Shown here one piece after another: positions 2,250 to 22,443 of a stretch of 27,473 bases of DNA. The DNA is from a virus. Positions within the stretch are counted from its first letter, which is position 1, and every line of letters starts with the position of its first letter. A program made the translations under genes and the position numbers. The notes under the pieces are model-generated. The model searched no databases. It was not told the DNA's origin and saw nothing but the letters and a program-made list of their open reading frames with translations. Location of the stretch: the IMG/VR virus record IMGVR_UViG_3300006810_000296, positions 1 to 27,473 of that record; one strand, written 5' to 3'.

Positions 2250-2292
2250 TTCCTCAGCAGTTTATTCAACGATAGCACAAAGGAATTAAAAA

Positions 2293-3573
2293 ATGGCAGG
2301 AGCATCAGTATCCGACGTTTACTCATTCGGAGCAGCCAAAGAGCTTTATTCTGACGACCGCGAATATCAATTGAACATCGCAAGCACCTTGTACAAGTAC
2401 ATCAACAAGGACAGCGGCCGTATCACGCTGGACGGAAACTACTTCAACATCGACTGCGAATTTCAGCGAAACGAGTCATATGCAGCAATCAATGACAGTG
2501 AGCCCCTTCCTCTCGCGGGTATTCCCAAGGACGTTTTTGCAAAGTATCGTTCCAAGAACCACTACGCAACAATCGAGATGACCACCAAGGCGGCGACTCG
2601 CGGTCATTCTGGTGGCCTTGTAGGTGGGAAATACCAGGACCGATTGGTCAAAGGCACTCTCCTGACCTTCATCTCCAACATCAACTTCGACTTGTACGGC
2701 AATGGACGCGGAAAACGAGCTGTCATCTCCAGCGCAACAGGCGGAGCCTCTAGCTTTGTCGTCGACTCAGCCGCTCGCATTCGTCCTGGAATGATTTTCG
2801 ATTGGTACGACAGCTCCCTTGCAACTCTTCGTGGCTCGATTCAAATCGGCGTGAAGGGCGTGGACCGAATGAGCCGAACTGTCTATGTCGATGGAACTTA
2901 TGGATCTGCCGCAGTTCCAGCGGGCGCGACAGCTGACGACGTTCTTGTCGTTAAAGGCTCACTCGACGCTGGAGAGCCTTCTGATGGTCGACACCTTGCA
3001 GGTCTGGAGCGAATCACAGACAACACCGTCTCCCTGGGTGAAATCAACCCCTCAACTTATGCTGAGTGGCAATCTGTGAATCAGAACCTGTCTAACGGTT
3101 CAATCACACAGCAGGCTCTTCAGATTCAGTTCGATTCGATGCACGACATCGCGGGATACTATCCTGACCGTTGCGCGTTCAACACGGCACAGAAGAGAAG
3201 CTACCTTTCTCAGTTCCTCAACCAACGTCGGTTCACATCGAACAGCTTCGACACAGGCGCAAGCTCACTGACTTTCGACCCGCTCAAAATGGGAGTGGAC
3301 GAAAAGAATCAGAGGCCTGGCGACATGATCATGATCGAAGACAAGGACTGCGATCCAGACGTTTGGTACTTCTGGTGCAATGAGCATCTTATTCTCGGCG
3401 AAGACTACTACGGACAACCAGCAATGGCGGACGAAGATGGTTCTGACTTCCGTTTCCGTCAGGGATTCGACAGTCTGCAAGGCTTCTACCGCTACTGGAC
3501 AAACACAGTGGTCGACAAGCGAAACTGCATCGGAAAAATCTACAACCTCGCAATCCCAAGCGGTGTACTCTAA
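2293..3573 (+). CDS. Major capsid protein, HK97-fold type, 426 aa
   Basis: This is the main shell protein of the phage head. The length, acidic N-terminus, a long central beta-rich region and a segment NGRGKRAVI (about residues 136-145) followed by beta hairpins fit HK97-fold capsid proteins of podoviruses. The C-terminal third carries aromatic and acidic strands (DPDVWYFWCNEHLILG, FRYWTNTVVDKRNCIGKIYN). A strong AAGGA site lies 8 nt upstream of the ATG. It is the first gene of the long rightward block and follows a candidate promoter, as expected for a highly expressed product. The family placement is by overall pattern; I am fairly sure of the capsid role because no other gene in the block fits it better. 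Confidence 0.85.
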   Translation: MAGASVSDVYSFGAAKELYSDDREYQLNIASTLYKYINKDSGRITLDGNYFNIDCEFQRNESYAAINDSEPLPLAGIPKDVFAKYRSKNHYATIEMTTKAATRGHSGGLVGGKYQDRLVKGTLLTFISNINFDLYGNGRGKRAVISSATGGASSFVVDSAARIRPGMIFDWYDSSLATLRGSIQIGVKGVDRMSRTVYVDGTYGSAAVPAGATADDVLVVKGSLDAGEPSDGRHLAGLERITDNTVSLGEINPSTYAEWQSVNQNLSNGSITQQALQIQFDSMHDIAGYYPDRCAFNTAQKRSYLSQFLNQRRFTSNSFDTGASSLTFDPLKMGVDEKNQRPGDMIMIEDKDCDPDVWYFWCNEHLILGEDYYGQPAMADEDGSDFRFRQGFDSLQGFYRYWTNTVVDKRNCIGKIYNLAIPSGVL

Positions 3574-3597
3574 GAGTGCGCCACGGGAGGGCATGAG

Positions 3598-3903
3598 ATG
3601 GAAGATTTTCAGTCACAGATAGAGCAGGCAATCAGGGCTCGCATTCTGGAGGAAATCAAAGCCGACAGACAAGCCCAGATCATCAACAACGTCTACGGCG
3701 GTGGGGCGCAATCCCCGCAGTCTGGCGGTTCTTCTGTTCGTGAGGCGATGGCGCAGTTTGACCCGAAGGACTACAATTACTTTGTAGACATCACTCGGGA
3801 AGACGTTCTGAATCCAGAGGGCGAGAAGATGGGCTGGAAAAAGCGCGTCAAACGCTACGCTGACCCGAAAGAACAGATGATTGAGGAGCTTTTCGGACAA
3901 TGA
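3598..3903 (+). CDS. Hypothetical small head-region protein, 101 aa
   Basis: The gene starts 24 nt after the capsid gene with GGGAGGG (3585-3591) six nt before the ATG. The N-terminus is a charged helix (IEQAIRARILEEIKADRQA), then a Gly/Ser linker, then an aromatic-acidic segment (FDPKDYNYFVDITRED). The C-terminus is basic, then acidic. There is no membrane span. It overlaps the next gene by 4 nt. Its place right after the capsid gene suggests a head accessory role, but I do not recognise the family. Confidence 0.7.
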   Translation: MEDFQSQIEQAIRARILEEIKADRQAQIINNVYGGGAQSPQSGGSSVREAMAQFDPKDYNYFVDITREDVLNPEGEKMGWKKRVKRYADPKEQMIEELFGQ

Positions 3904-4148
3904 GCATCAAAGAGAGCATGGGCGAGCAGACACCAGGCGGTGAACGAAGACAAATCACCTTCGAGGAGTTCATGCGTGCTGTTCTCAATGACATTGACCC
4001 GGCAAAGTATGCAGGCGAGGGGTGGTTTTCGACTGAGGAGTATGCGAGGCCCGAGGATATCCGCAACCCGTGGACCAGAGGCGAAGTGATGCGCGAAGGC
4101 GACTACTATCCAGGCCCTGATTTGATGCGAAAAATGAGAAACTACTAA
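3900..4148 (+). CDS. Hypothetical small acidic protein, 82 aa
   Basis: The start lies in an ATGA overlap with the preceding gene. The product is short, charged and rich in Trp, Tyr, Glu and Arg (EGWFSTEEYARPEDIRNPW), with no transmembrane stretch. It shares the aromatic-acidic style of the preceding protein, FDPKDYNYF there and IDPAKYAGEGWF here. The two may therefore bind the same partner or be distant relatives. Function unknown. Confidence 0.7.
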   Translation: MSIKESMGEQTPGGERRQITFEEFMRAVLNDIDPAKYAGEGWFSTEEYARPEDIRNPWTRGEVMREGDYYPGPDLMRKMRNY

Positions 4149-4159
4149 GGAGAATTGAA

Positions 4160-4480
4160 ATGGCAGGAATGGCGGCACTTAAGCAACTTCTTTCAAAGGG
4201 CGGAGACGAAGGCAAAGCGCTTTTGCAGGCTCTCGGATCCAAGGCTGATGACATGGGCGCAGGGCTTAAAGGCTTGGGCGCAGACGCAAAGCGAGCCGGT
4301 GAAAAAGGCTTGTTCGCTCTCGATCAGCAACTCGGAAAAGTCCCAGGCATGGCAGCCAAGCAGGACCCGCTCGCAATGACTGATGCATTCGCAGACCCAC
4401 GCAAGCGCAATGCGCTTCTTGCTGCTCTTGGCCTTGGTGGTGCTGGCGCAGGATTGGCCTACGGACTGGACGAGGACTAA
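4160..4480 (+). CDS. Small protein with glycine-rich C-terminal segment, 106 aa
   Basis: A strong AAGGAG site lies about 7 nt before the ATG. Residues 1-75 are Ala, Gly, Lys and Asp-rich helices (LLSKGGDEGKALLQALG). Residues about 87-102 form a hydrophobic glycine-zipper-like segment (ALLAALGLGGAGAGLAYGL) near the C-terminus, which could insert in a membrane. It sits with another glycine-zipper gene (4485) between the capsid and scaffold genes. A virion-borne membrane-active protein is plausible; no family is recognised. Confidence 0.7.
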   Translation: MAGMAALKQLLSKGGDEGKALLQALGSKADDMGAGLKGLGADAKRAGEKGLFALDQQLGKVPGMAAKQDPLAMTDAFADPRKRNALLAALGLGGAGAGLAYGLDED

Positions 4481-4484
4481 GAAA

Positions 4485-5027
4485 ATGGATCGGACTCAGG
4501 AAGAACGGCTCCGAGATTTGGCCCTTTCAGGCGGCATTGGCGGCGCACTCGTAGGAGGCGCAGCCGGTCTTTTGAGTCCCAAGATTACGAAGTTTTCGCA
4601 ACTTCTAAAGCCAGCTTTGACCGGCGGCGCCACATTTGGCGGAGTTGCAGCCGGTTCGGGATACATCGGTGACGAAATGCTGGGCGACCCTGAACAGGGT
4701 GAATCTAACCCCTACACGAAACGAACCGGACTGGGTGGTCTCGCAGTTGGTGGAGCTGGCGGAGGTCTCGCAGGTGCGCTCGTCGGAAGCGGAATCGCGA
4801 ACAAGGCCGCTCCAAAGGTGCTTGGTGATTCGTTTCTAGCCCGTAAAGCAATGGATTTTGTGGGCAAAGGCGGATTGTCAAAAGCAGGGAAGCTTGGCGC
4901 GATTGGCGCGCTTCTTGGTGCAGGGGCTAGCGGATTCATCGCAGCCGATGAGGGAATGCAGATGGATATGATCGAGAACGAGCGCAGGCGCAAACTCCTG
5001 GAGGATCTTGGCTATGGGAATCGTTGA
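4485..5027 (+). CDS. Glycine-zipper membrane-type protein, 180 aa
   Basis: ATG 4485, four nt after the previous stop, is preferred over an in-frame ATG at 4383 because the longer form would sit inside the upstream gene. Three Gly/Ala segments of 18-25 residues with GxxxG spacing (SGGIGGALVGGAAGLL; LGGLAVGGAGGGLAGALVG; LGAIGALLGAGASGFIAA) alternate with short charged linkers. Such repeats pack as membrane helices and occur in phage proteins that act during DNA entry and in small membrane proteins. The C-terminus is charged. The role is inferred only from composition and position between the capsid and scaffold genes. Confidence 0.7.
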   Translation: MDRTQEERLRDLALSGGIGGALVGGAAGLLSPKITKFSQLLKPALTGGATFGGVAAGSGYIGDEMLGDPEQGESNPYTKRTGLGGLAVGGAGGGLAGALVGSGIANKAAPKVLGDSFLARKAMDFVGKGGLSKAGKLGAIGALLGAGASGFIAADEGMQMDMIENERRRKLLEDLGYGNR

Positions 5028-5298
5028 ACAGATGATTCTAGCAGAGCGCAGCCTGGACGAGGGCGATATCGAGCGCCAATTGAACAATGTTATCGACCGT
5101 GGTTTAGAAACCTACATCCGCTTTATCGCGGCCAAAGGTCTTGCGGGTCAGTTTCTGGGTCTTGACACTCCCGTAGGGCAGGTCTCAGGAGTGCCTCTTG
5201 CCTCTGAATCTGTTCAGGGCGGCACTATAGAAAGTCTGTTTTCCGGTGGAGCGAAAACTTTGCTTGACGTACTGGCAAGGGGAAGACTTCCCTTTTGA
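5014..5298 (+). CDS. Hypothetical protein, 94 aa
   Basis: The ATG at 5014 is chosen because GGAGG (5000-5004) is 9 nt upstream; a TTG at 5008 is closer and less likely. It overlaps the previous gene by 14 nt. The N-terminal part is an acidic helix (AERSLDEGDIERQLNNVIDRG) and the middle is hydrophobic (YIRFIAAKGLAGQFLGL). No domain is recognised. After its stop comes a 38-nt untranslated gap holding a hairpin over the next gene's ribosome site. Confidence 0.65.
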   Translation: MGIVEQMILAERSLDEGDIERQLNNVIDRGLETYIRFIAAKGLAGQFLGLDTPVGQVSGVPLASESVQGGTIESLFSGGAKTLLDVLARGRLPF

Positions 5299-5304
5299 TT
5301 GAGT

Positions 5305-5334
5305 GATACTCTTTGGGCAAAAAGGGAGAGTATC
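5305..5334 (+). promoter_or_regulatory. RNA hairpin burying the scaffold-gene ribosome site
   Basis: GATACTCT (5305-5312) and AGAGTATC (5327-5334) are a perfect 8-bp inverted repeat. Two inner and one outer U-G pairs can extend it to about 11 pairs around a 10-nt loop. The Shine-Dalgarno GGGAGAG (5324-5330) lies mostly in the 3' arm, 6 nt before ATG 5337. The element lies between the stop at 5298 and the next start, so upstream ribosomes do not unfold it by translating through. No T-run follows, so it is not an intrinsic terminator. Confidence 0.6.
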
Positions 5335-5336
5335 GA

Positions 5337-6152
5337 ATGACCGACGCAGGACACGGCGAAACCAGCCAACAAGAAGCACCAGGCCAACAATCAGCAAACC
5401 AGGGAAATCAGCAGGAACTCGCACAACAAGAGCAGTTCTTGCAAGCTCTCAATGCGAAGTTTGCCGAGTATGACCAAAAGCTAGCTGGGGACAACGAAGA
5501 CAAAGAGACTCTGCAAAAGCTGAAACAGGCCTTCGGGAAGCAAGAAGAGCCGAAACAGAATCAAAAGTGGATCGACAAGCACCTCAGTACAATCCTTGAG
5601 GCCAGGCAAAAGGGGCAGCAAATGCCCATCACTGAGGACTTGGTTGTTGAGTTGCAAAAGCAGATGGACGAAACAAGCCAACTGAAGGCCGACCTTCTAA
5701 AAGCGCAGCAGGCCCTCCAGCGGATGCAGAATCCAGAAACGTGGCAGGACAATCAGATCTACTCTGATATGGACAACACCCTTTCGGGCGTTCTAGAAAA
5801 AGTCTACGGCCAGGAACACCCGCAGATGCATCAGCACGTCTCAGGGATGATTGCTGACAGGCTAAAGCAAGTGCGCAGTCAGGCTCCCGACGTGTGGTCG
5901 AAGATTCGCAATGACAAGACTCTCCAGCGCAAAATTGTCATGAAAGCAGTCGCCGATATCGTCCCGCCGCAGGCCATGCAAATGATGCGCCAGCAACACG
6001 AGGAGAATCAGCCGATCACACCCGAGCTTCTGAATCAAGCTTGGGAGGAGACCAGGCAAATCGAAGACCCCGAGCTGCGAGCAAAAGCAAAGGAGCTTTT
6101 AAGGCAGAAGCTTTTCAGTATGCGCTCACCCGTGAGGGCTCGCGGTGCTTGA
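5337..6152 (+). CDS. Probable capsid scaffolding protein, 271 aa
   Basis: A scaffold directs capsid shell assembly and then leaves. This protein has the usual profile: a very hydrophilic, Gln, Glu and Lys-rich chain that is almost wholly helical, with no Cys and few aromatics. It has a disordered N-terminus (residues 1-35) and long coiled-coil-like stretches (about 35-145), and ends in a basic C-terminus (LRQKLFSMRSPVRARG), as in scaffolds that bind capsid subunits through a basic tail. ATG 5337 is preferred over an in-frame TTG at 5313 that lies inside the upstream hairpin. It ends overlapping the large terminase start by 8 nt. An internal virion protein is the main alternative. Confidence 0.6.
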   Translation: MTDAGHGETSQQEAPGQQSANQGNQQELAQQEQFLQALNAKFAEYDQKLAGDNEDKETLQKLKQAFGKQEEPKQNQKWIDKHLSTILEARQKGQQMPITEDLVVELQKQMDETSQLKADLLKAQQALQRMQNPETWQDNQIYSDMDNTLSGVLEKVYGQEHPQMHQHVSGMIADRLKQVRSQAPDVWSKIRNDKTLQRKIVMKAVADIVPPQAMQMMRQQHEENQPITPELLNQAWEETRQIEDPELRAKAKELLRQKLFSMRSPVRARGA

Positions 6153-7431
6153 TTACTCGAGCCTAAAGCCGCTCCAGTCTCTCGTGACTGGGCTTTTCTT
6201 CCAGCACCGGCACATGATGCTCATGCTTCCGCGTCAGGAGGGAAAGACAGAACTCGGGGTGAGGCTCATGCACAATCTTATTTCGCATCCGACAGCCACA
6301 CGTCAGGGGCTCTTCTTGGCAAAATCAAAGCTTGCCGGAAAAAAGGCGACCAGAGAGAAGATGAGCCGCATCTTTGACAAGGACCAGTTCAAAGTAAACA
6401 CGATCGAAGTGGTCAACAAAGCCAACCCCAACGCGGTCTGCTTTATGGACTCGGTGGATAAGCAGCCGTCCAGACTTCGCGGAGGCTCCTATCATTTGGT
6501 CCATTGGTCGGAGGTGGCATTCTCTGAGTTTGACCACGGCGTGACAGTCGAGCACGTCTACAACACCGTATTGCAGCCAACCCAGCGAGCCACGCACGGC
6601 TACAGCTTTCTGGAGACCACGGCCAACGGAAAAAATGGATGGTACGACTTGTGGGAAAATGCCGAGGACTTCGGATTCTTTAAGCTGAGAATCAAACTCA
6701 GCCAGCTTGTAGACTGGGGTCTGGTCTCTGAAGAGGAGTTCTACCGACTGAAGGCCAAGATGCCGGATCTCGAGTTCGCCCAGGAGTACGAGTGCGAATT
6801 CGTCACATTCCAGGGGCTCACCTACGAAGAGATGCTTGAGGGGCACATCTGGGAGGATATGCCAGACCCTGAACCGTGGCAGGCGATTGCCTACGCAGTG
6901 GATTGGGGATGGCAGCCTTCAGCGACGTGTGTGTTGCTTGCCTACGTGCGCGACAATCGCGTGTGCATCTTCGACGAAATCTACGGCCAAAAGATTCGCC
7001 TGGAGGATCTAGCGACGCTCTTTCACGACAAGAAGTCTGACTATGGGCTTGGAAAGCTCTCAGGAGTCGGCGACCACGACCCAGACAAGATTGAAGAGCT
7101 GAACAGATGCGGCATCCCGTGCGCAAAGGCGGACAAGACGAACGTCCTTGCGCAGCGCATGAGAATCAAGACTCTGTTCAAGAATGACAGGCTCTACATC
7201 CACCCGAGATGCACGAATCTGATTCGTGACTTGCAGAGTGCTGTCTGGGACACGAAGAAAGAAGGCGAAATCGTCTATGCCAATTGTTCTTGGGGCCATT
7301 ACGACGGGGAAGCGGCACTGCGCTACCTGATTCGGCATCTCTCAGAGTTCGAGTCAAAGAATCCGACAGTCAAACTTCCGGCTACGTCGCAGGACAAGCG
7401 AGCTATGGCGATGAGTCGCGGGAGAGTTTGA
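6145..7431 (+). CDS. terL: Terminase large subunit, 428 aa
   Basis: This is the ATP-driven DNA packaging motor with a headful or cos nuclease. In the ATPase half, the variant Walker A motif is RQEGKT (residues 30-35), the arginine-rich loop is RLRGGS (110-115), and a Walker B-like YHLVHWSE ends at Glu123. The coupling motif is TTANG (158-162). The C-terminal RNase H-fold nuclease shows AVDWG with Asp253, GVGDHDP with Asp310 and GHYDGEAALRYL with Asp387. The GTG start has GAGGG six nt upstream and overlaps the preceding gene by 8 nt. The size is typical of shorter podovirus enzymes. Walker B carries Ser-Glu where most have Asp-Glu, as seen in some terminases. Confidence 0.93.
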   Translation: MLDYSSLKPLQSLVTGLFFQHRHMMLMLPRQEGKTELGVRLMHNLISHPTATRQGLFLAKSKLAGKKATREKMSRIFDKDQFKVNTIEVVNKANPNAVCFMDSVDKQPSRLRGGSYHLVHWSEVAFSEFDHGVTVEHVYNTVLQPTQRATHGYSFLETTANGKNGWYDLWENAEDFGFFKLRIKLSQLVDWGLVSEEEFYRLKAKMPDLEFAQEYECEFVTFQGLTYEEMLEGHIWEDMPDPEPWQAIAYAVDWGWQPSATCVLLAYVRDNRVCIFDEIYGQKIRLEDLATLFHDKKSDYGLGKLSGVGDHDPDKIEELNRCGIPCAKADKTNVLAQRMRIKTLFKNDRLYIHPRCTNLIRDLQSAVWDTKKEGEIVYANCSWGHYDGEAALRYLIRHLSEFESKNPTVKLPATSQDKRAMAMSRGRV

Positions 7432-7487
7432 GGAGCGAAATGAGTGGCGGACTTTGAGAGATGAGCATCAACAGAACTGCGCAGCCG

Positions 7488-7721
7488 CTAAACATTGGTT
7501 GATTCAAGCTTCTCTTCTTTTTTTTCTTTTGTAAGTAATCCGTAGGCTGCCAAGCCAAGAACGGCACCAGCGGCAGCCGGTGCTGCAATAGTCATAGCAG
7601 CTGTGCCGATCGCAGGAACAACGGCAGCAAAAGCGCCAGCAATAACAGGTTTTCCAAAGGCGAAGGCAGTAATTCCAGCCCCTCCGATAGCTCCAGTTAG
7701 GACAAAATCTTTCTTTTTCAT
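7488..7721 (-). CDS. Small Ala/Gly-rich membrane protein in reverse orientation, 77 aa
   Basis: The AAGGAA site lies 4-5 nt before the ATG. The protein has a basic N-terminus (MKKKD) and two to three hydrophobic Ala/Gly segments spanning residues 6-62 (VLTGAIGGAGITAFAFG; AGAFAAVVPAIGTAAM; AAAGAVLGLAAYGLL). It ends in a highly charged tail (KEKKEEK). It is the only leftward gene inside the 25-kb structural block, and a perfect palindrome lies just upstream, so it looks like an independently expressed insert (a moron). A holin, a superinfection-exclusion protein or another membrane accessory are all possible; the sequence does not decide. Confidence 0.65.
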   Translation of the reverse strand: MKKKDFVLTGAIGGAGITAFAFGKPVIAGAFAAVVPAIGTAAMTIAAPAAAGAVLGLAAYGLLTKEKKEEKLESTNV

Positions 7722-7736
7722 GGCATTCCTTTCTAT

Positions 7737-7770
7737 TTACCCAAAATGGGTAATCAATGGCTTAGGGTAA
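7737..7770 (-). promoter_or_regulatory. Palindromic TTACCC/GGGTAA element, likely operator
   Basis: TTACCC (7737-7742) and GGGTAA (7748-7753) are perfect inverted repeats around AAAAT. A third GGGTAA follows at 7765-7770. The element lies 16 nt upstream of the leftward membrane-protein ATG (7721) and about 100 nt before the rightward adaptor start (7853). The repeat spacing suggests a protein-binding operator more than an RNA structure. The rest of the 131-bp gap between the two genes holds no gene, and I see no clear promoter pair. Confidence 0.45.
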
Positions 7771-7852
7771 GGAAAAGCATGAGTCAAGCAAATTTCTCGC
7801 ATCGACTTAGGCAATGTTAAGCTGGAGCGAAAATGTTTTAAGGAGCCCACCA

Positions 7853-8506
7853 ATGGCTGTCGCATTGAGCACACTAGAAGCAAACGTCCTCCAGCTTTTA
7901 AGCAAGCAAAACACGTACCAAGGATTCTATTCTGACGATCAGATCAAGTTCGCGGTGAATGACTCCCTGGATTACGTCTACGCGAATATGATGTTCAACG
8001 GCGAAGGTTGGTTGACGACAATCGGAACTCTCGACACTGTGGCAGACACAGCGACCGTAGCTCTCCCAACCGACACGGTTGTGATCCACCAGGTCCGCTA
8101 TTTGCATGGTGATGTGTTCGTGCCTCTCCAGTACGATGACGATTTCGACCGGTATCAGTATTCTGGGGACCAGGAGACAGTCTACCCGACGACATACCGG
8201 CTCGTCGGCACGGATATCTACTTCAATCCAATCCCTTCAGTGGTTGGCACGGATCACGTTCAGATTGAATACTCCACATTCCCCGTGGAACTTGATATGG
8301 ATGCGGATCTTGCAAGTGCTCAAATCACGCGGGGCTTGCAACGCTTTGTCACGTACCGAGCAGCCAGCATTTGCCTAACGACTACCGATAGGGCAAACTC
8401 ACCCTGGAAAGAATATGAAATACAGTGGTGGCAATACTTGCAAGATTTGCTGAGCAAGCGCATCCGTGCGCCTCAGCCGATTAAGGACTTTCGGACGATA
8501 TACTGA
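7853..8506 (+). CDS. Head-tail adaptor / neck protein, 217 aa
   Basis: This protein likely sits under the portal and joins head to tail, as gp4 of P22 and gp11 of T7 do. The N-terminus is helical and recalls such adaptors (SDDQIKFAVNDSLDYVYANM). A beta-rich middle follows (TATVALPTDTVVIHQVRYL; VFVPLQYDDDFDRYQYSGD; TYRLVGTDIYFNPIPS), then a C-terminal helix pair. This helix-beta-helix order is common in podovirus adaptors. ATG 7853, with AAGGAG (7840-7845) seven nt upstream, is preferred over an in-frame ATG at 7814 without a ribosome site. The next gene overlaps by one nt. Confidence 0.65.
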   Translation: MAVALSTLEANVLQLLSKQNTYQGFYSDDQIKFAVNDSLDYVYANMMFNGEGWLTTIGTLDTVADTATVALPTDTVVIHQVRYLHGDVFVPLQYDDDFDRYQYSGDQETVYPTTYRLVGTDIYFNPIPSVVGTDHVQIEYSTFPVELDMDADLASAQITRGLQRFVTYRAASICLTTTDRANSPWKEYEIQWWQYLQDLLSKRIRAPQPIKDFRTIY

Positions 8507-8964
8507 TGACATACACGTACATGGACAGCCCCTTTACAGGCCCATACTATCAGTGGTTTTGCGACCTCGGATATCCCCAGTGTGATTTGCACGTTTTCGA
8601 GTCGGGAGAGTGGGCCATTCTCGAGATGATAAACGCACCTGTGGTCCCTTCGCTGACTCAGTGGAGATGGATAGCTAAGGGCTTTCGCAACATCGAGCCC
8701 AACCAGAGCCGAGTGAAGCGGATTCTCGAGCAGATCGACCCGCGCAAGAGGTGGATCTGGGAGCTGGAAGAGAAGCGCAGCCAGGAACTCGAAGCCCAGC
8801 AGAATGCCAGGGAAGAGCGAGCCGAAGAGCTTGCGACTGAGTGGACCGATTCAGTTGTGAGAAACCCTGACCTTATGGAGCGCATCGCGAAGAATGGCGC
8901 AGAGGAGCTTCTTCCGCACAAGATTGCCGAGAATATTCCCGACAGCAAACTGAAAGGCGTGTGA
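8506..8964 (+). CDS. Hypothetical structural-region protein, 152 aa
   Basis: The gene starts in a TGATG overlap with the adaptor gene. The N-terminal 60 residues are aromatic-rich (DSPFTGPYYQWFCDLGYP; TQWRWIAKGFRNIEP). The rest is a long charged coiled-coil-like helix (KRWIWELEEKRSQELEAQQN) with an acidic end. Translational coupling on both sides ties it to tail assembly. I do not recognise a family. Confidence 0.7.
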   Translation: MTYTYMDSPFTGPYYQWFCDLGYPQCDLHVFESGEWAILEMINAPVVPSLTQWRWIAKGFRNIEPNQSRVKRILEQIDPRKRWIWELEEKRSQELEAQQNAREERAEELATEWTDSVVRNPDLMERIAKNGAEELLPHKIAENIPDSKLKGV

Positions 8965-9629
8965 TGAGACAGAATCTAATCCTTTTGACAATGAGCCCAC
9001 TGGCCAAGATTTTCCTGAAGCGATTTCGCGTCCAGAACCCGGACGGATCCGAAACAATCGTCCGAGCTGAGGAGCTTCTTGATGACCCCAGCCGGATTTG
9101 GAAGGAAGAAAAGTTCTGTGTCCCGTTCACGACGTGCGCGGGCAATATTCCATTTTGGTCTGGGGTGCCTCTGCCGATTCAGGACCAACAACAGCGAGAC
9201 GTACTGATCGGAGGCCGCAGCGGATACGACGGCCAGGAAACTGACGAGACCGGACTTGTCCTTCTCGATGTTGAAATGGACGTGCTGAGCGGAATCTTTC
9301 AGGTCATGAGCGGCGGCAAGATGCCCGCAATCGAGAAGAAGATCAAAGAGGCGATGAAGCAGGCCCGCCAGGAATCCGATGCCAGGTGCATGGCCGCAGC
9401 CAGACGAGTTTTCCAGCGGATGCAGATGCAACGGCGCAGCATCGAAGAAGACGGGAATGACTCCTACACGCCCAGCACCACAGAGCGACTTGTAGCACTT
9501 GTGATGGAAAAAGAGGCAACCGCAGAAGTTCAGAGACAGAGTGCAAGAGACGAGTCCTTTGCTGCTACAATGGCAAGAATTGAAAAGGCCGGAGTGAAGA
9601 ATGCAGCACACGACGAGATTCGAAACTGA
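8964..9629 (+). CDS. Hypothetical structural-region protein, 221 aa
   Basis: The start at ATG 8964 overlaps the previous stop by one base; GTG 8961 and ATG 8991 are alternatives. Residues about 20-95 look beta-rich (KRFRVQNPDGSETIVRAEELL). From about 105 on the chain is helical and charged with many Met, Gln, Arg and Glu, probably coiled coil. The end overlaps the following large gene by 29 nt. It lies between the adaptor and nozzle-like genes, which suggests a tail or neck accessory role, but no family is recognised. Confidence 0.68.
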   Translation: MRQNLILLTMSPLAKIFLKRFRVQNPDGSETIVRAEELLDDPSRIWKEEKFCVPFTTCAGNIPFWSGVPLPIQDQQQRDVLIGGRSGYDGQETDETGLVLLDVEMDVLSGIFQVMSGGKMPAIEKKIKEAMKQARQESDARCMAAARRVFQRMQMQRRSIEEDGNDSYTPSTTERLVALVMEKEATAEVQRQSARDESFAATMARIEKAGVKNAAHDEIRN

Positions 9630-14361: not shown

Positions 14362-14686
14362 GAAGATAGTTGAGAGTATCGTTGAAAGAGCAGCCGAAGC
14401 AGCAGTGCGAAAGCTTCAGGAGCTGCCTAGGCAGGAAGTTCAGGTCGCGCAAGATCAAGAGCCAGCGAAGATTGAAGAATATGGCTTCGCAATTGAGCGC
14501 AGATGGTTTTGGGCAAGGCGGTACAAAGTTGTGGGTCATATGGAAGAGCGAGCCCAGAAGCTGGCCAGCGGTGAGATTGTGGAAATCAAGCCGCGCATGA
14601 TTTTGCAGATGAAAGACGGGACCAGGATTTGCATACCTGACATAGAATCCAAGAGCTTTCGGGTTTATCCTCTTCCCAGGGGGTGA
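14354..14686 (+). CDS. Hypothetical small protein, 110 aa
   Basis: The start overlaps the previous gene by 8 nt. The N-terminal helix is amphipathic (ESIVERAAEAAVRKLQEL), and the C-terminal half is basic and beta-rich (AIERRWFWARRYKVVGHM; IVEIKPRMILQMKDG). There is no membrane span. It lies between two large internal-virion-type genes and may be a partner of one of them. Function is not recognised. Confidence 0.7.
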   Translation: MDEKIVESIVERAAEAAVRKLQELPRQEVQVAQDQEPAKIEEYGFAIERRWFWARRYKVVGHMEERAQKLASGEIVEIKPRMILQMKDGTRICIPDIESKSFRVYPLPRG

Positions 14687-14688
14687 GT

Positions 14689-16131
14689 ATGGGATACCGC
14701 GTCACAGAAGAATATCAGCCACAATACAGGCAGGTCAGGCCCTACATGCAGACTGGCCCCTTGCCCGGCGACCGTTTCGACAAAATCCGGCAGCAGATTG
14801 CTGAAGAAGGCAGAGTTCGAGCGCAAGGGCTCCAGGACCTTGTCGAGAAGCCGATCGAGGCATGGCAAAAGGCCAGCGACAGGGCTTTGCAGCGTGGCGC
14901 GACAGAAGAAGCAATCGAGACCCAGCGCGCACAGCGGCAGCTTTCGGGACTTCAGCAACGAAAGGCGCAGCAGGACCTTGCACTTGCTGAAGAGTTTGGA
15001 CGAGCAGAGCGCGAAGCATCACTTGCGAGCACCCGCGAACAGATGGAAGCATCTCGAGTCCAGCGAGCCCTAGCAGAAGAACAGGCCGATATCATGCGCG
15101 AGGAGCTTCCGACGGGGCGCACGGTGATGCAAGAGCAGATTCTTGCGCCAATCGAAGCGAGCCAGCGCAGCGCACAGCTTGCAGAGCGGCAAATGAACAT
15201 CGCAGAGCGCAACGCGGTAGCCCAGGCGGAGAATTTGAGACTTCAGCGCAAAGTGACCCAGCTTGGAATCGACGAGCAGGAGCGAGCGGCGCGAGTTCGA
15301 GGGTTCCAAGCACAGATTGCAGCGGAGACGGACCCGCAGCAAAGAGCAGCACTGATTGACAATCTCAAAGAGCTAGGGACAGCAGACGAGATTGGTCAGG
15401 CAGTGTCAAATCTCAAGGCCGGAGAGCTTCAAAATGAAATGATGCGCCGCCTGATGATTCAGAGCGACCCAGTAGAACAGAACAGACTACAGCGCAGCGT
15501 GGAAGCGCAGCGAGCTTCACAGGTAGCCAATTCTGTGACGCAGGAGCTGGACCAGGCGATTGCAGACCTGTCATCGGCAGCGCCAGACAGTTCGGAAGCG
15601 CAGAGCGCAGCCTTGCGGATTGCACAGATTCTTGAACGCTATGGATACACGACCGAAGCGGAGTCGATGGGCAGCAAATGGGACTTTGAGCTTGGGAATG
15701 TGCTTCAGGGCAAGAATCCGGTCCAGTCTCGAACGCAGATTGCGAAAGAGGCAAGAGCTAAGCTCTACAGGCGCATTGCGGCAGATATAGAAGCCCAGTA
15801 CGGCGACTTTTCGAGCCAGAAGCAGTTTGCAGATCAACTCAGACGCAAAAGCTTGAACATGGGCGAGCAGATGTCGACGGGAAATCTGTTCCAGGCGCAG
15901 GGAGGCAATGCCATCCCGACAGTTCCAGGCATTTACAACCCAATCGCGCCCCAGCCTGGTCAGCAAATTCAACCTGCACAGACGCCGCAGTTTGAGAGAG
16001 CGCCGGACGGTTCAATCAGGCTTAAGCAGCCGAATCAACAGGCGGCGCAGAGTCAGCCGGGAATGTTGACGCCGCAAATGCTCGATATTCTCAAACAGGG
16101 ACGTCAGAGAACACAGGTGGGCGGACGATGA
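14689..16131 (+). CDS. Internal virion-type coiled-coil protein, 480 aa
   Basis: ATG 14689 is preferred because AGGGGG lies 5-6 nt upstream; a GTG at 14683 lies directly against that site. The protein is almost wholly helical and hydrophilic, with long Gln, Arg, Ala and Glu-rich coiled coils from about residue 20 to 310 (EEAIETQRAQRQLSGLQQRK; ALAEEQADIMREELP). It ends in a Pro/Gln-rich tail. This matches ejected internal core proteins in style and position. No lytic transglycosylase or other enzyme motif is visible in it. Confidence 0.6.
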   Translation: MGYRVTEEYQPQYRQVRPYMQTGPLPGDRFDKIRQQIAEEGRVRAQGLQDLVEKPIEAWQKASDRALQRGATEEAIETQRAQRQLSGLQQRKAQQDLALAEEFGRAEREASLASTREQMEASRVQRALAEEQADIMREELPTGRTVMQEQILAPIEASQRSAQLAERQMNIAERNAVAQAENLRLQRKVTQLGIDEQERAARVRGFQAQIAAETDPQQRAALIDNLKELGTADEIGQAVSNLKAGELQNEMMRRLMIQSDPVEQNRLQRSVEAQRASQVANSVTQELDQAIADLSSAAPDSSEAQSAALRIAQILERYGYTTEAESMGSKWDFELGNVLQGKNPVQSRTQIAKEARAKLYRRIAADIEAQYGDFSSQKQFADQLRRKSLNMGEQMSTGNLFQAQGGNAIPTVPGIYNPIAPQPGQQIQPAQTPQFERAPDGSIRLKQPNQQAAQSQPGMLTPQMLDILKQGRQRTQVGGR

Positions 16132-17672
16132 GCTACGAAATCGAAATTCAGGCGCAGGACGGAAGTACGGCGACCGTTCCCGCGAGTAAGGTCGTCTCAG
16201 ACCTTCAAAATGTGGGAGTCCAGGCGACTCTTTCCCCAGATGGTCAGATGCTCCAGTATGACTTAGAGGGGACTCCAATGGAGATGCCTCTAACTGATTT
16301 TGTCGAGCAGTCCATCGGGCCAGTGCTCTCACTTTCGTTCTTGCCGCAGGCTACAGACTTCACGACCGTCGATCCAGAACTCAGGCTCGGAATCGAGAAC
16401 CTTCCAAACGACAGCTTGCGGCGCAAGTATCTGGAGCTGAATCTTGAGAGCCAAGGGATTGAGAATCCGCAGCTTGTGGGCAAGGGCTCAGACTGGGCTC
16501 TTTTCGATCCGACCGACGGAACCTACAAAGCGTTGACAAACAAGCCTGGACTCGACCTCTCCGAACTCGGCCAAGTGGGCGCAATTGGAGCCCAGGCCAT
16601 TGGCTCGATCCTTGGCGGAGCTTTGGGAGCTGGCGCAGGCACAGCAGCAACACCAGGATTTGGATCATTCGCAGGCGGGGCAGCAGGTGCGGCACTTGGT
16701 GGCCAGCTCGGACGCGGCGCGGTGGATGCCTACCTTGCGGCAGCCCAGCCAGGATACAGAAACTTTCTCGGGAGTCTTGGGGGTGAAGAGTTCGCAGAGA
16801 TTGCAAATGAGCGAACCAGACAGGCCGCTCTTGATATGGCCTTTGGAGGTCTTGCGGGCGGTATCGGTGCACTTGTCCCAGCTCTGAGCAAGGGCGCAAT
16901 CACAAGAGGCGGCGCAGCGGCAGGGCTTGGACTCGAGAAAGCGGCAGGCGCAGGGCGCAAAGTGCTCGGTGCAGCCCAGAATCCACTTGGCCAACAGCTC
17001 GGCGCAGAACTTGCCTTCGGAACTGGACCGATTCAGCTCGGTGCGTGGCTCGCGCAGGCTCCAGCGTGGCTAACGAAGAAGGCTCCACAGTTGATGGGAT
17101 GGACGGGGCGCAAGACAGGCAGCGAGGGACTCGAGAATCTCGCAGAAGAGCTTGGGAAGCGAGTGCCAGGCGGCATTCCAGCCGACGATTTTGTCAGACA
17201 ATGGCAAGCGCGATTCGGCGGCGGCTTCAGACCAGGGCCAGGAATGCAGGAGGCTGGAGCCGAGGAGGTTCTAGGTCGCGCAGGCCGGAAGGTTGGGCAG
17301 AAGTTTGACCAATGGCGAAATGCCCGCAACGCAGCCAAGGAGCAAAAGGCTTGGGAGTTCGATATGGGAGTTCGAGGCAGGAAGCCGACAAATTTCCTGA
17401 ACGAGAATCTCGGCCCGTGGAGCGCACAGCAGGGGCTGGAATCTCTAGGTAAGAGTGTTGGGCGCGGCGCAGAGGCTATCGGTTCGATCGGTCGAGGAGT
17501 TGAGGGCGCAATTGAGCAGGGAATGCGAGGCGTGTACGGAGCGACTCGCGCAGGACTCTACCCAGTTGAGAAACTCGGCCAAGGAATGCGGGTCGGATTC
17601 GGACTTGCCCAACCCCTCGAGTATAGGACGTATGGCGCACTTGGCAGTAGACTGACAGAAGAACAATTTTAG
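16128..17672 (+). CDS. Internal virion-type glycine-rich protein, 514 aa
   Basis: The start lies in an ATGA overlap. Residues 1-60 form a small beta-rich domain (SYEIEIQAQDGSTATVPASK), followed by a helical region with a second small domain (KGSDWALFDPTDGTYKAL, about 119-136). Residues 150-280 are a run of glycine-zipper segments (IGAQAIGSILGGALGAGAG; GGAAGAALGGQLGRGA; GGLAGGIGALVPALS). The C-terminal half is basic with many Gly and Arg. Glycine-zipper stretches of this kind occur in ejected proteins that cross the host envelope. It is the third of three large genes of this kind in a row. Confidence 0.6.
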   Translation: MSYEIEIQAQDGSTATVPASKVVSDLQNVGVQATLSPDGQMLQYDLEGTPMEMPLTDFVEQSIGPVLSLSFLPQATDFTTVDPELRLGIENLPNDSLRRKYLELNLESQGIENPQLVGKGSDWALFDPTDGTYKALTNKPGLDLSELGQVGAIGAQAIGSILGGALGAGAGTAATPGFGSFAGGAAGAALGGQLGRGAVDAYLAAAQPGYRNFLGSLGGEEFAEIANERTRQAALDMAFGGLAGGIGALVPALSKGAITRGGAAAGLGLEKAAGAGRKVLGAAQNPLGQQLGAELAFGTGPIQLGAWLAQAPAWLTKKAPQLMGWTGRKTGSEGLENLAEELGKRVPGGIPADDFVRQWQARFGGGFRPGPGMQEAGAEEVLGRAGRKVGQKFDQWRNARNAAKEQKAWEFDMGVRGRKPTNFLNENLGPWSAQQGLESLGKSVGRGAEAIGSIGRGVEGAIEQGMRGVYGATRAGLYPVEKLGQGMRVGFGLAQPLEYRTYGALGSRLTEEQF

Positions 17673-17683
17673 GGAGACCAGCA

Positions 17684-18133
17684 ATGGCATTTGCATTGAC
17701 GGATGCGAATTTCGGGAAAATCGAAATTCCAACAGCAATCAAGAAAAGAGGGCTTCAGTACATTGAATTGAAGGTGACTCGCGGAGCCTCCGATACGGAT
17801 CTCGACATCGGCAACAGCGCAGGGACCTTTTGGACCGCAGCAATCGCAGATGGGACATATGGGACACTTGCGACAAACGCACTTCGTGAGTTCCAAAAAA
17901 TCGAAGACAAGATTGACGGAATTGTCAGCCTTGAGATTCTCGGCGCAAATGCCCCTCTCTTGCGTGTTGCGTCTGCATCTGCCGCGACGAACTACGACGT
18001 TTCAAACGGCGGAACTTATCCGCTCGTTGTGCCAGAAGTGACGCTATTCAATGACGCAGCCCCAGCAACGCTATCCGTGCGGCTTGTGGTATCTTTGACC
18101 GACGAAACAAACACAGTTGACTTCAGCTACTGA
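17684..18133 (+). CDS. Beta-rich structural protein, first of a tandem pair, 149 aa
   Basis: GGGAGA lies about 8 nt upstream of the ATG. The protein is beta-rich and acidic with no Cys. It shares a signature with the next gene: LELxxT-type strand, then TDLDIGNSAGTFWT here and VTLDIGDTSGTFWT there, at similar positions. Both begin MAF and end in a strand pattern typical of beta-sandwich virion proteins. The pair sits between the internal virion genes and the portal. Strong separate ribosome sites suggest many copies. A decoration or appendage role is possible but not shown. Confidence 0.7.
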   Translation: MAFALTDANFGKIEIPTAIKKRGLQYIELKVTRGASDTDLDIGNSAGTFWTAAIADGTYGTLATNALREFQKIEDKIDGIVSLEILGANAPLLRVASASAATNYDVSNGGTYPLVVPEVTLFNDAAPATLSVRLVVSLTDETNTVDFSY

Positions 18134-18145
18134 GGAGAATTTGAA

Positions 18146-18565
18146 ATGGCTTTCGGACTTTCATCAATCAAGGCATATGGCGTTCCTTCTTACGAGTACA
18201 GCGGCAACAAGTTCGTCCAACATCTGGAGCTTGAAATCACAGGCACCACAGCAGACGTTACTCTCGACATTGGCGACACAAGCGGGACATTCTGGACTGA
18301 CGTTTCGGACGCGGCAGCAGCCAAAGTGATCGACCAGATTTACGCGAAGGTCGAAAAGCACTTCTCCCTGAGCGTTCCCGAACTGCTCGCAAAGGTTCCA
18401 ATTGCTTCGGGTGACACTGTAGCGACCGGAGAGTACAAAGTTGCTTCGCCAGAGAGCACAAGCTTCGAAATCACTCTCTTCGCAAATGAGGGGCTCACAT
18501 CGTACAATCTCGCAATGAGCTGGAGCCTCCAAGACGGAGAGCTGCCAATTGAGTATGCTGGATGA
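18146..18565 (+). CDS. Beta-rich structural protein, second of a tandem pair, 139 aa
   Basis: A strong GAGGAGA site lies 7-8 nt before the ATG; the same GGAGAATT(T)GAAATGGC context precedes the gene at 4160. The protein is a divergent paralogue of the preceding one, with the clearest match over residues about 30-52 (LELEITGTTADVTLDIGDTS). The rest has diverged, though length and strand pattern are kept. It overlaps the following gene by 4 nt. A six-pair mini-hairpin (CTTCAG/CTGAGG) touches the ribosome site but spans the upstream stop codon, so upstream translation would disturb it. Confidence 0.7.
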   Translation: MAFGLSSIKAYGVPSYEYSGNKFVQHLELEITGTTADVTLDIGDTSGTFWTDVSDAAAAKVIDQIYAKVEKHFSLSVPELLAKVPIASGDTVATGEYKVASPESTSFEITLFANEGLTSYNLAMSWSLQDGELPIEYAG

Positions 18566-18822
18566 ATGATCTGACGAAACACTATCTGCTCCAGACGATT
18601 GAAGTTATGGAGCAGAATTTTTTGAGCCAACTCAAAGTGCTTCGGGGCACAATCCTTGCAAGTATGCCTGAAGAGGTGAAGGCCCCGACGCGAGTCGAAA
18701 TGAAGAGGAAGGAAGTTGACGCAAACGCGGAACTTGCCAAGTTCTTCGGCGACATCGAAGGCGTGAACGTAAGGGGAGCAGATGAGCGCAACATTCCAGC
18801 CAGCGAAACGGGAGACAAGTGA
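18562..18822 (+). CDS. Hypothetical small protein, 86 aa
   Basis: The start lies in an ATGA overlap with the previous gene. Residues 1-35 form an amphipathic helix (HYLLQTIEVMEQNFLSQLKV). The rest is charged and probably disordered. The end overlaps the portal gene by 41 nt, which is long for this window but leaves the portal start with a GGGG site. Its place just before the portal suggests a head role, but nothing more can be said. Confidence 0.65.
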   Translation: MNDLTKHYLLQTIEVMEQNFLSQLKVLRGTILASMPEEVKAPTRVEMKRKEVDANAELAKFFGDIEGVNVRGADERNIPASETGDK

Positions 18823-21235
18823 TCTTCCCTGGTGCGAAGATTCCGTAGAAAAGCTGGGATCGACCGTCTCCACTTTCGTCGAAAAGAACGAAAGCTATAT
18901 CGGCGAATGGGGCAAACGTTGGTACGAGAATTTTCAGTTCATCTACGGCAATCAGTCGGTGATGTGGAATGAGAAATACGGCGTACCCGTAGACTATGAC
19001 TTCCTTCGCCAGCAAACACCGTCAGTCAATCAGCAGAGTCAGACCAACGTCAGCCGAACCATTTTCGAGGCTTTGAAGGCTCTGATTTTCTCCTCTATGC
19101 CTGACTGGGACGTAGCGACTGAAGAAGAGAGCCACAGACAAGGCAAACGCTTCCAGAAGATTTGCCAGAAGCTTTTGGATTGCTACAGCGAGCGCCTGAA
19201 CCTCGAAGAGCAGCTTGACGACGCAGCAGGAATCTTTACCGGATTCGGAATGGTCGCAGGCAAAGTCTCTTGGGACAAGGCGCGCGGTGGTGTGCGCACA
19301 GTGCCAAAGATGGTCGAGAAAGAAATCACAGTCCAGACAACCGAGTATATCGAAACCCCTCAGGGGATTGTTGAAGTCCCAACAGTCGCGCTTGATGAAA
19401 ACGGTGATCCAGTCGTTGAAACGCGGTTGGTTGAAGCTCGCGATTCAAGCGGTGCTGTCATCACTGAGACGAAATGGGAAGGTGATGCCAGGTTAGACAT
19501 TCTGACACCGTTTGAATACCGGCGCGACCCGACGTCTCACGACGGTAACGACGCAAAATACTATCAGCACTTGCGAATCCTCGACTTTGATGACTTCTTG
19601 CGCGAGTACGACGAGCACGAGGGACGGACGAGATTCTACAAAGACATTCGCCCAGGACTTTTCGAAGGCGAGCGGTGCTATCGCTACGCTCTGCGCCATT
19701 ACATGAGAATGGTCTTTGTCACTCCCGTCGTCGACGATAGACGCGGTGGAGTTGGGACAATGAGCCGAGTCAAGCGCGACTTGCAGGATCACAAACTGCT
19801 CGTCATCGAACACTATGACAAGCCATGCCCCGAGAAGTGGCCAGAGGGTCGCAAGCTTGTCATCGTCAACGGCTACTGCACGCACGTTCACAAGCCGCAG
19901 TTTACGACCAAGAAGCCAGGCGGATGGCATCCGTTCTGCGAGGCCAACTGGCTGAAACTCAGACCAAGCCCGATGGCAACCTCTGCCATGAACGATGTGA
20001 CAGCAAAGAATCGCGAGCTGAACAGACTGGACAGCTTGATTGACACGAGCACTATGCGGAACCTGGGCTCTATGCTCCTCGTCAAAACAGGCGCAGGACT
20101 GGACCCACAGCGCATCTTTGGCGAGCCTGGGCAGATACACGAAGTCAACAACGTCATGGACGTGGCGCGGTGGGTCAGGGATGACCAGCCGGTGCCGAAT
20201 GTGCTGGACAAGCTTCGGGAACAAAAGAAGCAGGACAGCTACGAAATCTCTGGAGCCCAGGACGCTCTGAGAGGCGACCGTACCAAGGGCGTGACATCTG
20301 GATATATGCTTAAGATGCTCCAGGAGAGAGAAGAAGCGAGACTTTCACCCGCAAGGCGCAGATTTGAACGCTGGGTCTCGACATTGGGTGAGAAGATGAT
20401 CGCTTGCGTCCGCTCCAATGCTGAGAATCTTGGAGAGGACATTTTCGGGACTCTGAAGCGCAGTGCAGCGGGAGAGTTCACAGCAAGCGACATTCAGACA
20501 TTCTTGCGGACTCCTCTTGATTTCGGAGTCGATATTCGAGTGGAACCAGGTTCAATGATTGCCAAGAGCAAGGCGAGCATCCAGGCGACCTTGCTTGATG
20601 TAGTGCAGAAAACTCCAGCGGGTGCGAGACTCGAGAATCCCGCAGTGCTGGACAAGTTCTTGAAGTTCTTCGACGCCGACTTGCTCAGAGACCAGAGCGC
20701 GATGCACAGGGACCGCGCAGAGAAAGAGAACGAAAAGTTTGCAGACTTGGGACAGCTTGGACCGAGTGCGAAGGGTGTTAACATGCCTATGGTGATGCCT
20801 ATCGACGATGACGCCTTGCACATCCAAGAGCACGAGGCGGACATGATCGAGAAGGCCGAAGAGCTTCAGGCGAATCCGTTCGAGCTCGAAATGCGGCTTT
20901 TCCATATCGAGATGCACCGGATTGCAGCGAAAGAGAAGAAGGGCGAGCTTGTGCCAGGCTCTATCAACACCTTCCCGCAGACCTACGAGCAGTACAAATC
21001 TCTGGGAGCGCCAACAGCGGGCCAAGTCGTTCAAGGTCAGGTCCAGACCGACCAGGCGAAGAAGATGCAGCCTCCTCCGCCTCCGCAGCAGCCAAACGGA
21101 GCCACAGCGCAGCCAAAACCGCCACAGGCCCCTACAGGACAGCAGCCAGCGCCAGGCATGGCAGGACCGCCACTTAAGCAGCCAAGTGCGCCAGCGGCGA
21201 ACACTCCACCGGCAGCGCAGGGAGGCCCGACATGA
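18782..21235 (+). CDS. Portal protein, P22-like, 817 aa
   Basis: The portal is the dodecameric ring through which DNA enters and leaves the head. The length, the N-terminal pattern (WGKRWYENFQFIYGNQSV), and a core segment with GDRTKGVTSGYMLKMLQER followed by ARRRFERWVSTLGEKM match the P22/podovirus portal type (P22 gp1 is 725 aa). The C-terminal 100 residues are Gln, Pro and Ala-rich and probably disordered. ATG 18782 follows AAGGGGAG. The gene lies 11 kb downstream of the large terminase, whereas in most tailed phages the two are close. It overlaps the next gene by 4 nt. Confidence 0.8.
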   Translation: MSATFQPAKRETSDLPWCEDSVEKLGSTVSTFVEKNESYIGEWGKRWYENFQFIYGNQSVMWNEKYGVPVDYDFLRQQTPSVNQQSQTNVSRTIFEALKALIFSSMPDWDVATEEESHRQGKRFQKICQKLLDCYSERLNLEEQLDDAAGIFTGFGMVAGKVSWDKARGGVRTVPKMVEKEITVQTTEYIETPQGIVEVPTVALDENGDPVVETRLVEARDSSGAVITETKWEGDARLDILTPFEYRRDPTSHDGNDAKYYQHLRILDFDDFLREYDEHEGRTRFYKDIRPGLFEGERCYRYALRHYMRMVFVTPVVDDRRGGVGTMSRVKRDLQDHKLLVIEHYDKPCPEKWPEGRKLVIVNGYCTHVHKPQFTTKKPGGWHPFCEANWLKLRPSPMATSAMNDVTAKNRELNRLDSLIDTSTMRNLGSMLLVKTGAGLDPQRIFGEPGQIHEVNNVMDVARWVRDDQPVPNVLDKLREQKKQDSYEISGAQDALRGDRTKGVTSGYMLKMLQEREEARLSPARRRFERWVSTLGEKMIACVRSNAENLGEDIFGTLKRSAAGEFTASDIQTFLRTPLDFGVDIRVEPGSMIAKSKASIQATLLDVVQKTPAGARLENPAVLDKFLKFFDADLLRDQSAMHRDRAEKENEKFADLGQLGPSAKGVNMPMVMPIDDDALHIQEHEADMIEKAEELQANPFELEMRLFHIEMHRIAAKEKKGELVPGSINTFPQTYEQYKSLGAPTAGQVVQGQVQTDQAKKMQPPPPPQQPNGATAQPKPPQAPTGQQPAPGMAGPPLKQPSAPAANTPPAAQGGPT

Positions 21236-21756
21236 TCGCAAAAATCATCAATCTCGCAGAGGCTCGTGGATGGAAGGCTTTAGAAAAGGCTCTGAAGAGA
21301 GATCAATATCTCGAATCGGTTACGAAAACCAATAACCCAGTATATTTTGCAGACAAGTATGACGCAGGGAATAAAGCCATTGGGCGGGGTATGGAGCTTG
21401 TTGCCGTGGCAAAACCTAAAAGCCAAAGCGAAGGCATTCCAACATTCTGGCGCGACTTGTTCAGGGAGGATATGCCTGGCTTCCATGTTGCTGACGCATT
21501 CAAGGGCAATCGCAAAGGCGGGGGCGTTGTCAGTCAAAACCAAAGAGCCATGCAAATCTACGGCCCGACCAACGATGAATACTGGAAGATTCGGGAAAGA
21601 AGAGGACTGAGCGCCGACCCTTCAAAGTGGACACCTGAAAACTTAAGAGAGGGGCACACGCGAACTGACCGAACTCTTTCTGAGTTGATGCTAGATTTTA
21701 CCGTCAATCGACGTGAGAAGCCTTCAATCTTCTTTGCAGATGGAACGACGCTATGA
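21232..21756 (+). CDS. Hypothetical protein, 174 aa
   Basis: The start lies in an ATGA overlap with the portal stop. The N-terminus is a basic helix (EARGWKALEKALKRDQYLES). The middle is Gly, Arg and Lys-rich, and the C-terminal part contains IYGPTNDEYWKIRERRGLS and an ordered end (LSELMLDFTVNRREKPSIFF). It is basic overall, unlike the acidic genes that follow. No enzyme motif or membrane span is visible. Coupling to the portal suggests a head function. Confidence 0.7.
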   Translation: MIAKIINLAEARGWKALEKALKRDQYLESVTKTNNPVYFADKYDAGNKAIGRGMELVAVAKPKSQSEGIPTFWRDLFREDMPGFHVADAFKGNRKGGGVVSQNQRAMQIYGPTNDEYWKIRERRGLSADPSKWTPENLREGHTRTDRTLSELMLDFTVNRREKPSIFFADGTTL

Positions 21757-22441: not shown

Positions 22442-22443
22442 GA

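Follow-up and report, generated by a model that had tools for sequence, protein, structure and literature searches.

Late genes with the portal far behind the terminase in a little-known lineage of podovirus-type phages

The viral DNA analysed here, referred to below as the window, is the entire IMG/VR record IMGVR_UViG_3300006810_000296, a single metagenomic contig of 27,473 bases. It carries, in this order, a small-terminase candidate on the minus strand and then the genes for the capsid, a scaffold candidate, the large terminase, the adaptor, the tail, a set of ejection-type proteins and the portal, with 11,350 bp between the stop of the large terminase gene and the start of the portal gene. 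Ten of the 11 relatives that we recovered hold 16–17 of 17 shared gene families, all on one strand and in exactly the order of the window. This recurrence excludes chance, and the order is inherited by the lineage, not an accident of the window contig. We are fairly confident that the window represents a fragment of a podovirus-type genome (~38–44 kb) from a little-known lineage, in which the late genes form one co-directional block of fixed order. A sequence-only reading had already described capsid, scaffold candidate, terminase and, ~11 kb later, a portal behind the tail and internal-protein genes, and the open reading frames (ORFs) are located accordingly. Its suggestion that the order may mark a distinct lineage agrees with the recurrence among the relatives and with the order terminase, portal, scaffold, capsid in more distant phages.

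Gene order in the window and its relatives

Scans of IMG/VR with single proteins returned no relatives, and alignments were needed to detect any. Two-row and nine-row alignments led to nine IMG/VR contigs (G001–G007, G011 and G012) and the same alignment-based scans also to G008, a contig in a bin labelled Armatimonadota, so that with the GenBank record MW202458.1 (ctKpZ937) the relatives number 11. Gene order was compared by running iterated profiles from the window genes against all ORFs of the 12 genomes. Two further genomes, G009 and G010 (loci L010 and L011), matched the shared families weakly and were compared for those families only. In the rows aligned, identity to the window is about 50–61% for the capsid and 42–46% for the portal.

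GenBank searches covered 50,697 phage records, with the proviso that very near records may be omitted from the matches. The capsid matched 11 of these records, ten of them actinophages at 24–28% identity; the large terminase matched 460, and besides ctKpZ937 the matches listed stand at ~24%; the portal matched 14, among which ctKpZ937 alone covers at least 80% of its length. For the adaptor and the tail gene, ctKpZ937 is the sole matching record. No paper naming ctKpZ937 or describing the lineage was found in the literature searched. The lineage is nearly uncharacterised, being represented in the collections searched by one GenBank genome and no paper. The Armatimonadota bin of G008 gives a hint of the host, but a weak one, since that contig is cut inside the late block, as a free phage genome would be, and it is possibly misbinned.

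Homologues of the capsid, large terminase, adaptor, large tail protein and portal are each present in all 11 relatives. From start to start, terminase and portal genes are 12.4–15.7 kb apart in the window and ten relatives, against 3.6 kb in ctKpZ937. G001, G002, G003 and G006 each carry the full order on one contig without a cut. The trees show G003, G006 and G007 as close kin, with hardly any difference between the latter two, so the ten order-sharing relatives stand for about eight independent lineages besides the window. The window groups with these three in both the terminase tree (96/98) and the portal tree (95/98), and the histories of the two genes are thus not in conflict there.

In all 12 genomes the portal ORF is overlapped or directly adjoined by a small ORF. 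As a lone query the small gene of the window matches in none of the 11 relatives; a profile of the pre-portal ORFs built without ctKpZ937 finds the pre-portal ORF of ctKpZ937 (E 0.015). The G005 training row of this profile was a wrong ORF of 41 amino acids (aa), and the actual pre-portal ORF of G005 was matched at E 3.7e-7. The presence of such an ORF in every genome and the match in ctKpZ937 suggest that the small gene and the portal gene move together.

The features of the window, by position and strand, are as follows.

1860–2240, minus: small-terminase candidate, 126 aa, facing away from the capsid gene, the two gene starts 52 bp apart
2293–3573, plus: major capsid protein, 426 aa, matching phrog_14242 major head protein (E 5.6e-30)
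3598–3903, plus: small conserved gene a, in 11/11 relatives
3900–4148, plus: small conserved gene b, in 10/11 relatives
4383–5027, plus: conserved glycine-rich gene c, in 11/11 relatives
5313–6152, plus: scaffold candidate, 279 aa, immediately before the large terminase in 11/11 relatives
6145–7431, plus: large terminase subunit, 428 aa, matching phrog_2 (E 1.6e-19)
7814–8506, plus: head-tail adaptor, matching Pfam SU10_adaptor above the cut-off (E 7.5e-9), in 11/11 relatives
8506–8964 and 8961–9629, plus: conserved genes d and e, each in 11/11 relatives
9601–12867, plus: large tail protein, 1088 aa, matching phrog_8094 tail appendage (E 8e-8), in 11/11 relatives
12868–14361, 14354–14686, 14683–16131 and 16128–17672, plus: ejection-type (internal protein) genes, by place and make-up
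17684–18133 and 18146–18565, plus: tandem paralogues h1 and h2, family in 11/11 relatives
18562–18822, plus: small gene overlapping the portal start, small-ORF neighbour of the portal in 12/12 genomes
18782–21235, plus: portal protein, 817 aa, matching phrog_156 (E 1.1e-14), in 11/11 relatives
22444–22926 and 22930–23574, plus: conserved genes i and j after the portal, each in 11/11 relatives

The capsid protein also matches NCBIfam capsid_maj_Podo (E 9.6e-21; 74.3 bits, under the cut-off of 80) and is 57% identical to the annotated capsid of MW202458.1. The large terminase passes the Pfam Terminase_6N cut-off (24.9 bits against 22) and is 47.6% identical to the annotated terminase of the same record. 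For the large tail protein, which also matches phrog_3287 virion structural (E 8.1e-7), the call is weaker than those for capsid, terminase, adaptor and portal. The real start of gene c probably lies further inside its ORF, given an overlap with 4160–4480.

Genes 12868–17672 appear to be of ejection type, judging by make-up and by location ahead of the portal; library searches gave no match for the genes from 12868 to 18565. By profile, 12868 and 16128 are present in all 11 relatives and 14354 in eight. The 482-aa gene at 14683–16131 has a profile match in none of the 11, despite conserved flanks, and other genes occupy that place. In the window the h1 profile recovers h2 and the h2 profile h1 (E 5e-32 and 1e-29), and the copy number of their family seems variable, with one in ctKpZ937, two in the window and three labelled in G012. 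Two other ORFs of the window have no counterpart by profile in the 11 relatives: a 77-aa ORF rich in glycine and alanine, encoded on the minus strand between terminase and adaptor (7488–7721), and a 677-aa fibre-like protein (23492–25525) that carries a Peptidase_S74 chaperone domain (E 3.3e-7) towards its end and also matches BppL_N.

ctKpZ937 and the direction of change

Several points weigh against a single order fixed throughout the lineage, and one of them is ctKpZ937 itself. This uncultivated member of the Caudoviricetes from Manatee Spring, the sole close relative to bear a name and the one circular GenBank record among the relatives, differs in its order. It holds 16 of the 17 families, in another order and some of them on the other strand. 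Like the window, it has capsid, terminase and adaptor in succession, a divergent gene before the capsid gene, and genes d and e in their places. Unlike in the window, the portal gene lies 2.3 kb after the terminase gene, the tail gene lies beyond the portal (18.5–21.7 kb), and the ejection-type genes are on the minus strand at 25.8–30.8 kb, where the 12868-like gene comes after the 16128-like gene in the reading direction, the reverse of the window. With the tail and ejection genes both affected, more than one change is needed. In the collections searched, the relatives with the order of the window are not a described group, the sole close GenBank relative having another order.

On the same side, the window has no starred partner in the joined tree of 11 families, and a clade of the 11 genomes other than ctKpZ937 is not rejected by the approximately unbiased test (p-AU 0.11 for the capsid, 0.14 for the portal, 0.60 for the terminase and 0.43 for the 11 families joined). 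Further, six relatives (G004, G005, G007, G008, G011 and G012) show the full order only when their contig ends are joined, and terminal repeats are present in two of them (G004 and G007) and absent from the other four. The stretch from terminase to portal is uncut in G004, G008 and G012, and that from capsid to terminase in G005, G007 and G011.

Two side observations also concern ctKpZ937. At 1155–2796 of MW202458.1 (L002) there are several adjacent glycine-rich ORFs, alike by eye, where the window has one. A 93-aa ORF on the minus strand of the window (304–585) weakly matches a plus-strand gene of ctKpZ937 at 3119–3373 (26%, E 4e-4), which lies on the opposite side of the capsid gene.

As to the direction of change, we incline to see the order of ctKpZ937 as the derived one, since it is disrupted in more than one respect, although the data do not settle the matter. 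The capsid tree places ctKpZ937 among seven others, to the exclusion of the window's side (98/96, 96/98), and the terminase and portal trees leave its placement unsettled. The opposite history, in which the older order is that of ctKpZ937 and the other 11 genomes owe theirs to a single origin after the split, strikes us as rather unlikely, though it deserves a hearing: distant relatives also have the portal close behind the terminase, and the tests above leave ctKpZ937 unrejected as sister to the rest. However, its ejection genes are inverted and re-ordered and its tail gene has moved, so that ctKpZ937 is itself rearranged, and its nesting in the capsid tree speaks against an early split.

It is also conceivable, if improbable, that the order in ctKpZ937 is a misassembly, in which case the lineage would be without known exception; ctKpZ937 is one of 11, and it has each shared family about once, as a false join would leave them. 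Against this, it was deposited as a complete circular genome, and at least two changes of order and strand would be required. An assembly artefact in the window is scarcely credible. The window is a metagenomic contig, apparently incomplete (as are G001 and G003), and no end repeats were found in it, so a chimera could be suspected of such a fragment; but with ten of 11 relatives in agreement, and four of them carrying the entire order on uncut contigs, independent false joins would need to coincide, and we rule the artefact out.

Identity of the portal and of the terminase and scaffold candidates

The large distance between terminase and portal depends on the gene at 18782 being the portal gene, and this assignment is firm: beyond the PHROG match, the protein is 46% identical over 88% of its length to the gene annotated as portal in MW202458.1, and its predicted fold is portal-like. 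An AlphaFold2 model built from 11 rows (mean predicted local distance difference test score, pLDDT, of 63.7) returned 65 PDB matches at E ≤0.001 in Foldseek, the top one being the N4 portal (E 2.2e-12), and the best 50 of the 65 are without exception either portals or complexes of portal, neck, tail or vertex. With VIA-align 2, the 50 matches listed are portals or complexes containing one, and the best Z is 23.0 (Pan3 portal, 339 residues, 4.4 A). A structural check of the kind that the sequence-only reading had proposed for this gene hence gives a predicted fold that matches portals by both methods. Less favourable are the middling confidence of the model, in which 276 of 817 residues have pLDDT <50, the low whole-chain TM-scores in Foldseek (0.2–0.35 over the query) and the lack of any match of the portal profile to PDB sequences. 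That the gene is not a portal, the true one lying near the terminase, has next to no chance of being right: identity to known portals outside the lineage is only 22–25%, but the phrog_156 match and the fold matches in both methods contradict such a reading, a PHROG scan covering 20 genes of the window named no second portal-like one, and a wrong portal call is ruled out by family and fold together.

The scaffold and small-terminase assignments lack firm homology, which counts against the full description of the block, and both proteins stay candidates, assigned mainly by position. In 11 of the 12 genomes, all but G005, the capsid gene is immediately preceded by a minus-strand gene of comparable size and pattern. 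Its copies share 17–32% identity with that of the window, which as a lone profile query found none of the relatives. Of 10 members, a few weakly match small-terminase PHROGs (phrog_2538, E 4.4e-4; phrog_4102, E 0.0039; phrog_641, E 0.023, the last being the match of the window's own candidate), while PHROGs of unknown function score equally (phrog_2109, E 5.9e-4). By eye, several of the candidates have a helix-turn-helix-like start and an end containing tryptophan or phenylalanine; G002 is without the start, and G003, G006 and G007 differ. A structure-based assignment was tried and dropped: the model is all-helical with a pLDDT of 61.5, nothing in the PDB is significantly similar to it (the Sf6 small terminase ranks 7–9, E about 3), and the PDB sequence matches are mostly to designed repeat proteins. 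PMC10386132 documents a small-terminase assignment made elsewhere from gene position alone.

The scaffold candidate is such by position and make-up only, having no scaffold match in PHROGs or the PDB. A tblastn hint of homology to Shocker (39% over 36 aa, E 0.045) is unsupported by hhalign against the pre-capsid gene of the actinophages Jasmine and Shocker (probability 0.4%), and an assignment on that ground was dropped. Where the sequence-only reading had put a small-terminase candidate on the other strand and a scaffold candidate before the large terminase, the positions are conserved, in 11 of 12 genomes and 11 of 11 relatives, respectively, and the identities stay those of candidates.

Packaging, genome content and comparison with known phages

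Terminal direct repeats of 114–127 bp are present in four of the 12 genomes (G002, G004, G006 and G007), and the contigs start at varying positions relative to the capsid gene. Such circular assemblies cut at different points would fit terminally redundant, circularly permuted DNA, and the genomes very probably lack fixed ends, with packaging by a putative headful mechanism. This also qualifies the earlier statement that the capsid comes first: the order is real, and its apparent beginning is partly that of the contig, since relatives assemble as circles cut elsewhere.

The late block begins with the capsid gene and two or three small genes; the scaffold candidate comes next, then the large terminase and the adaptor, two more small genes and the tail, and the block ends with the ejection-type proteins, the small gene and portal, and two conserved genes. 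The small-terminase candidate faces away upstream of the capsid. The proteins would act in the ordinary manner: small and large terminase subunits would deliver the DNA to the portal of a procapsid built from capsid and scaffold proteins, adaptor and tail would then close the head, and the ejection proteins would exit with the DNA. The order may have arisen by a shift of capsid and scaffold ahead of the terminase, with tail and ejection genes coming to stand between terminase and portal.

One could speculate, and we hold the idea to be doubtful, that the late operon of the lineage follows a logic of its own: that with the capsid first and the portal last on one long transcript, falling expression sets the ratio of roughly 400 capsid to 12 portal copies, and that a small terminase made from an earlier, divergent transcript separates DNA recognition in time from motor and portal; selection would then keep the order, and ctKpZ937 would have switched to another way of balancing. 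In the divergent region between capsid and small-terminase candidate there is a promoter-like site at 2220–2249, such sites being at chance level in the window (7 found against 7.5 expected in 1–13700, and 9 against 6.3 in 13700–27473). Terminator-like sites number 10 against 14.6 and 21 against 14.1 expected in the same two halves, and neither an Rfam match nor a tRNA was found in the window. Elsewhere in the lineage, scans of ten G006/G004 proteins gave lysozyme, primase-polymerase, helicases, VRR-NUC, DnaB-like helicase, ERF and a glycosyl hydrolase domain.

Adjacency of terminase and portal is common enough that annotation and prophage finding can rely on it. A lineage in which the two are at least 11 kb apart in ten of 11 relatives, with one rearranged, offers a test case for what keeps head-gene order, and the late genes named here now allow nine IMG/VR contigs and one bin contig to be recognised.

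Among known phages, Jasmine, Shocker and MW202795 are distantly related to the window through capsid, portal and terminase homologues, and in all three the terminase is followed by the portal and then by the capsid; judging from their order, the lineage as a whole would have moved the capsid ahead of the terminase. Arthrobacter phage Jasmine and Microbacterium phage Shocker are podovirus-type actinophages, Jasmine having an adaptor homologue as well (E 1.5e-5), and their order of terminase, portal, scaffold-position gene, capsid and tail differs from that of the window. A passage of PMC5513430 gives Jasmine terminal repeats of 1,330 bp, and that paper and PMC7302621 describe actinophages in which many genes separate the terminase from the portal.

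The order terminase, portal, scaffold, capsid, called usual by the sequence-only reading, does hold for P22 and phiEco32 but is one of several, as N4, phi29 and the T4-like phages illustrate. The window does not match the P22-type order (terminase, portal, scaffold, capsid, adaptor, tail, ejection), nor that of T7 (portal, scaffold, capsid, tail, internal proteins, terminase), which is the P22 order read round the circle. It differs likewise from phiEco32 (Kuravirus/SU10-like), which has terminase, portal, scaffold and capsid, and its link to SU10-like phages is the Pfam family name of the adaptor only.

Closer in layout is N4 (Schitoviridae), where, as in the window, the portal stands behind tail genes, about 9.65 kb from gp68, which we take to be the large terminase; tail and lysis genes separate the two. 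The likeness is one of layout only. Unlike the window, N4 has the capsid after the portal and a 10.5-kb virion RNA polymerase gene, and such a giant gene is a defining feature of the Schitoviridae. The longest ORF in any of our 12 genomes, three of which look incomplete, encodes 1,127 aa, well short of the N4 gene. T4-like phages, with terminase, tail sheath and tube genes, portal and capsid in a passage of PMC10783043, resemble the window in having the portal after terminase and tail genes; unlike it, they are contractile-tailed and their capsid follows the portal. In Bacillus phage phi29, capsid and tail genes precede the portal, as in the window, but the scaffold comes before the capsid, the packaging ATPase is at the far end and the genome is 19 kb.

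A succession of capsid, scaffold candidate and terminase was seen in none of the handful of annotated genomes compared. A portal behind the tail genes is therefore not new, and the order of the window is unusual yet with parallels; its less usual part is the capsid, scaffold candidate and terminase in that order, together with a divergent small-terminase candidate.

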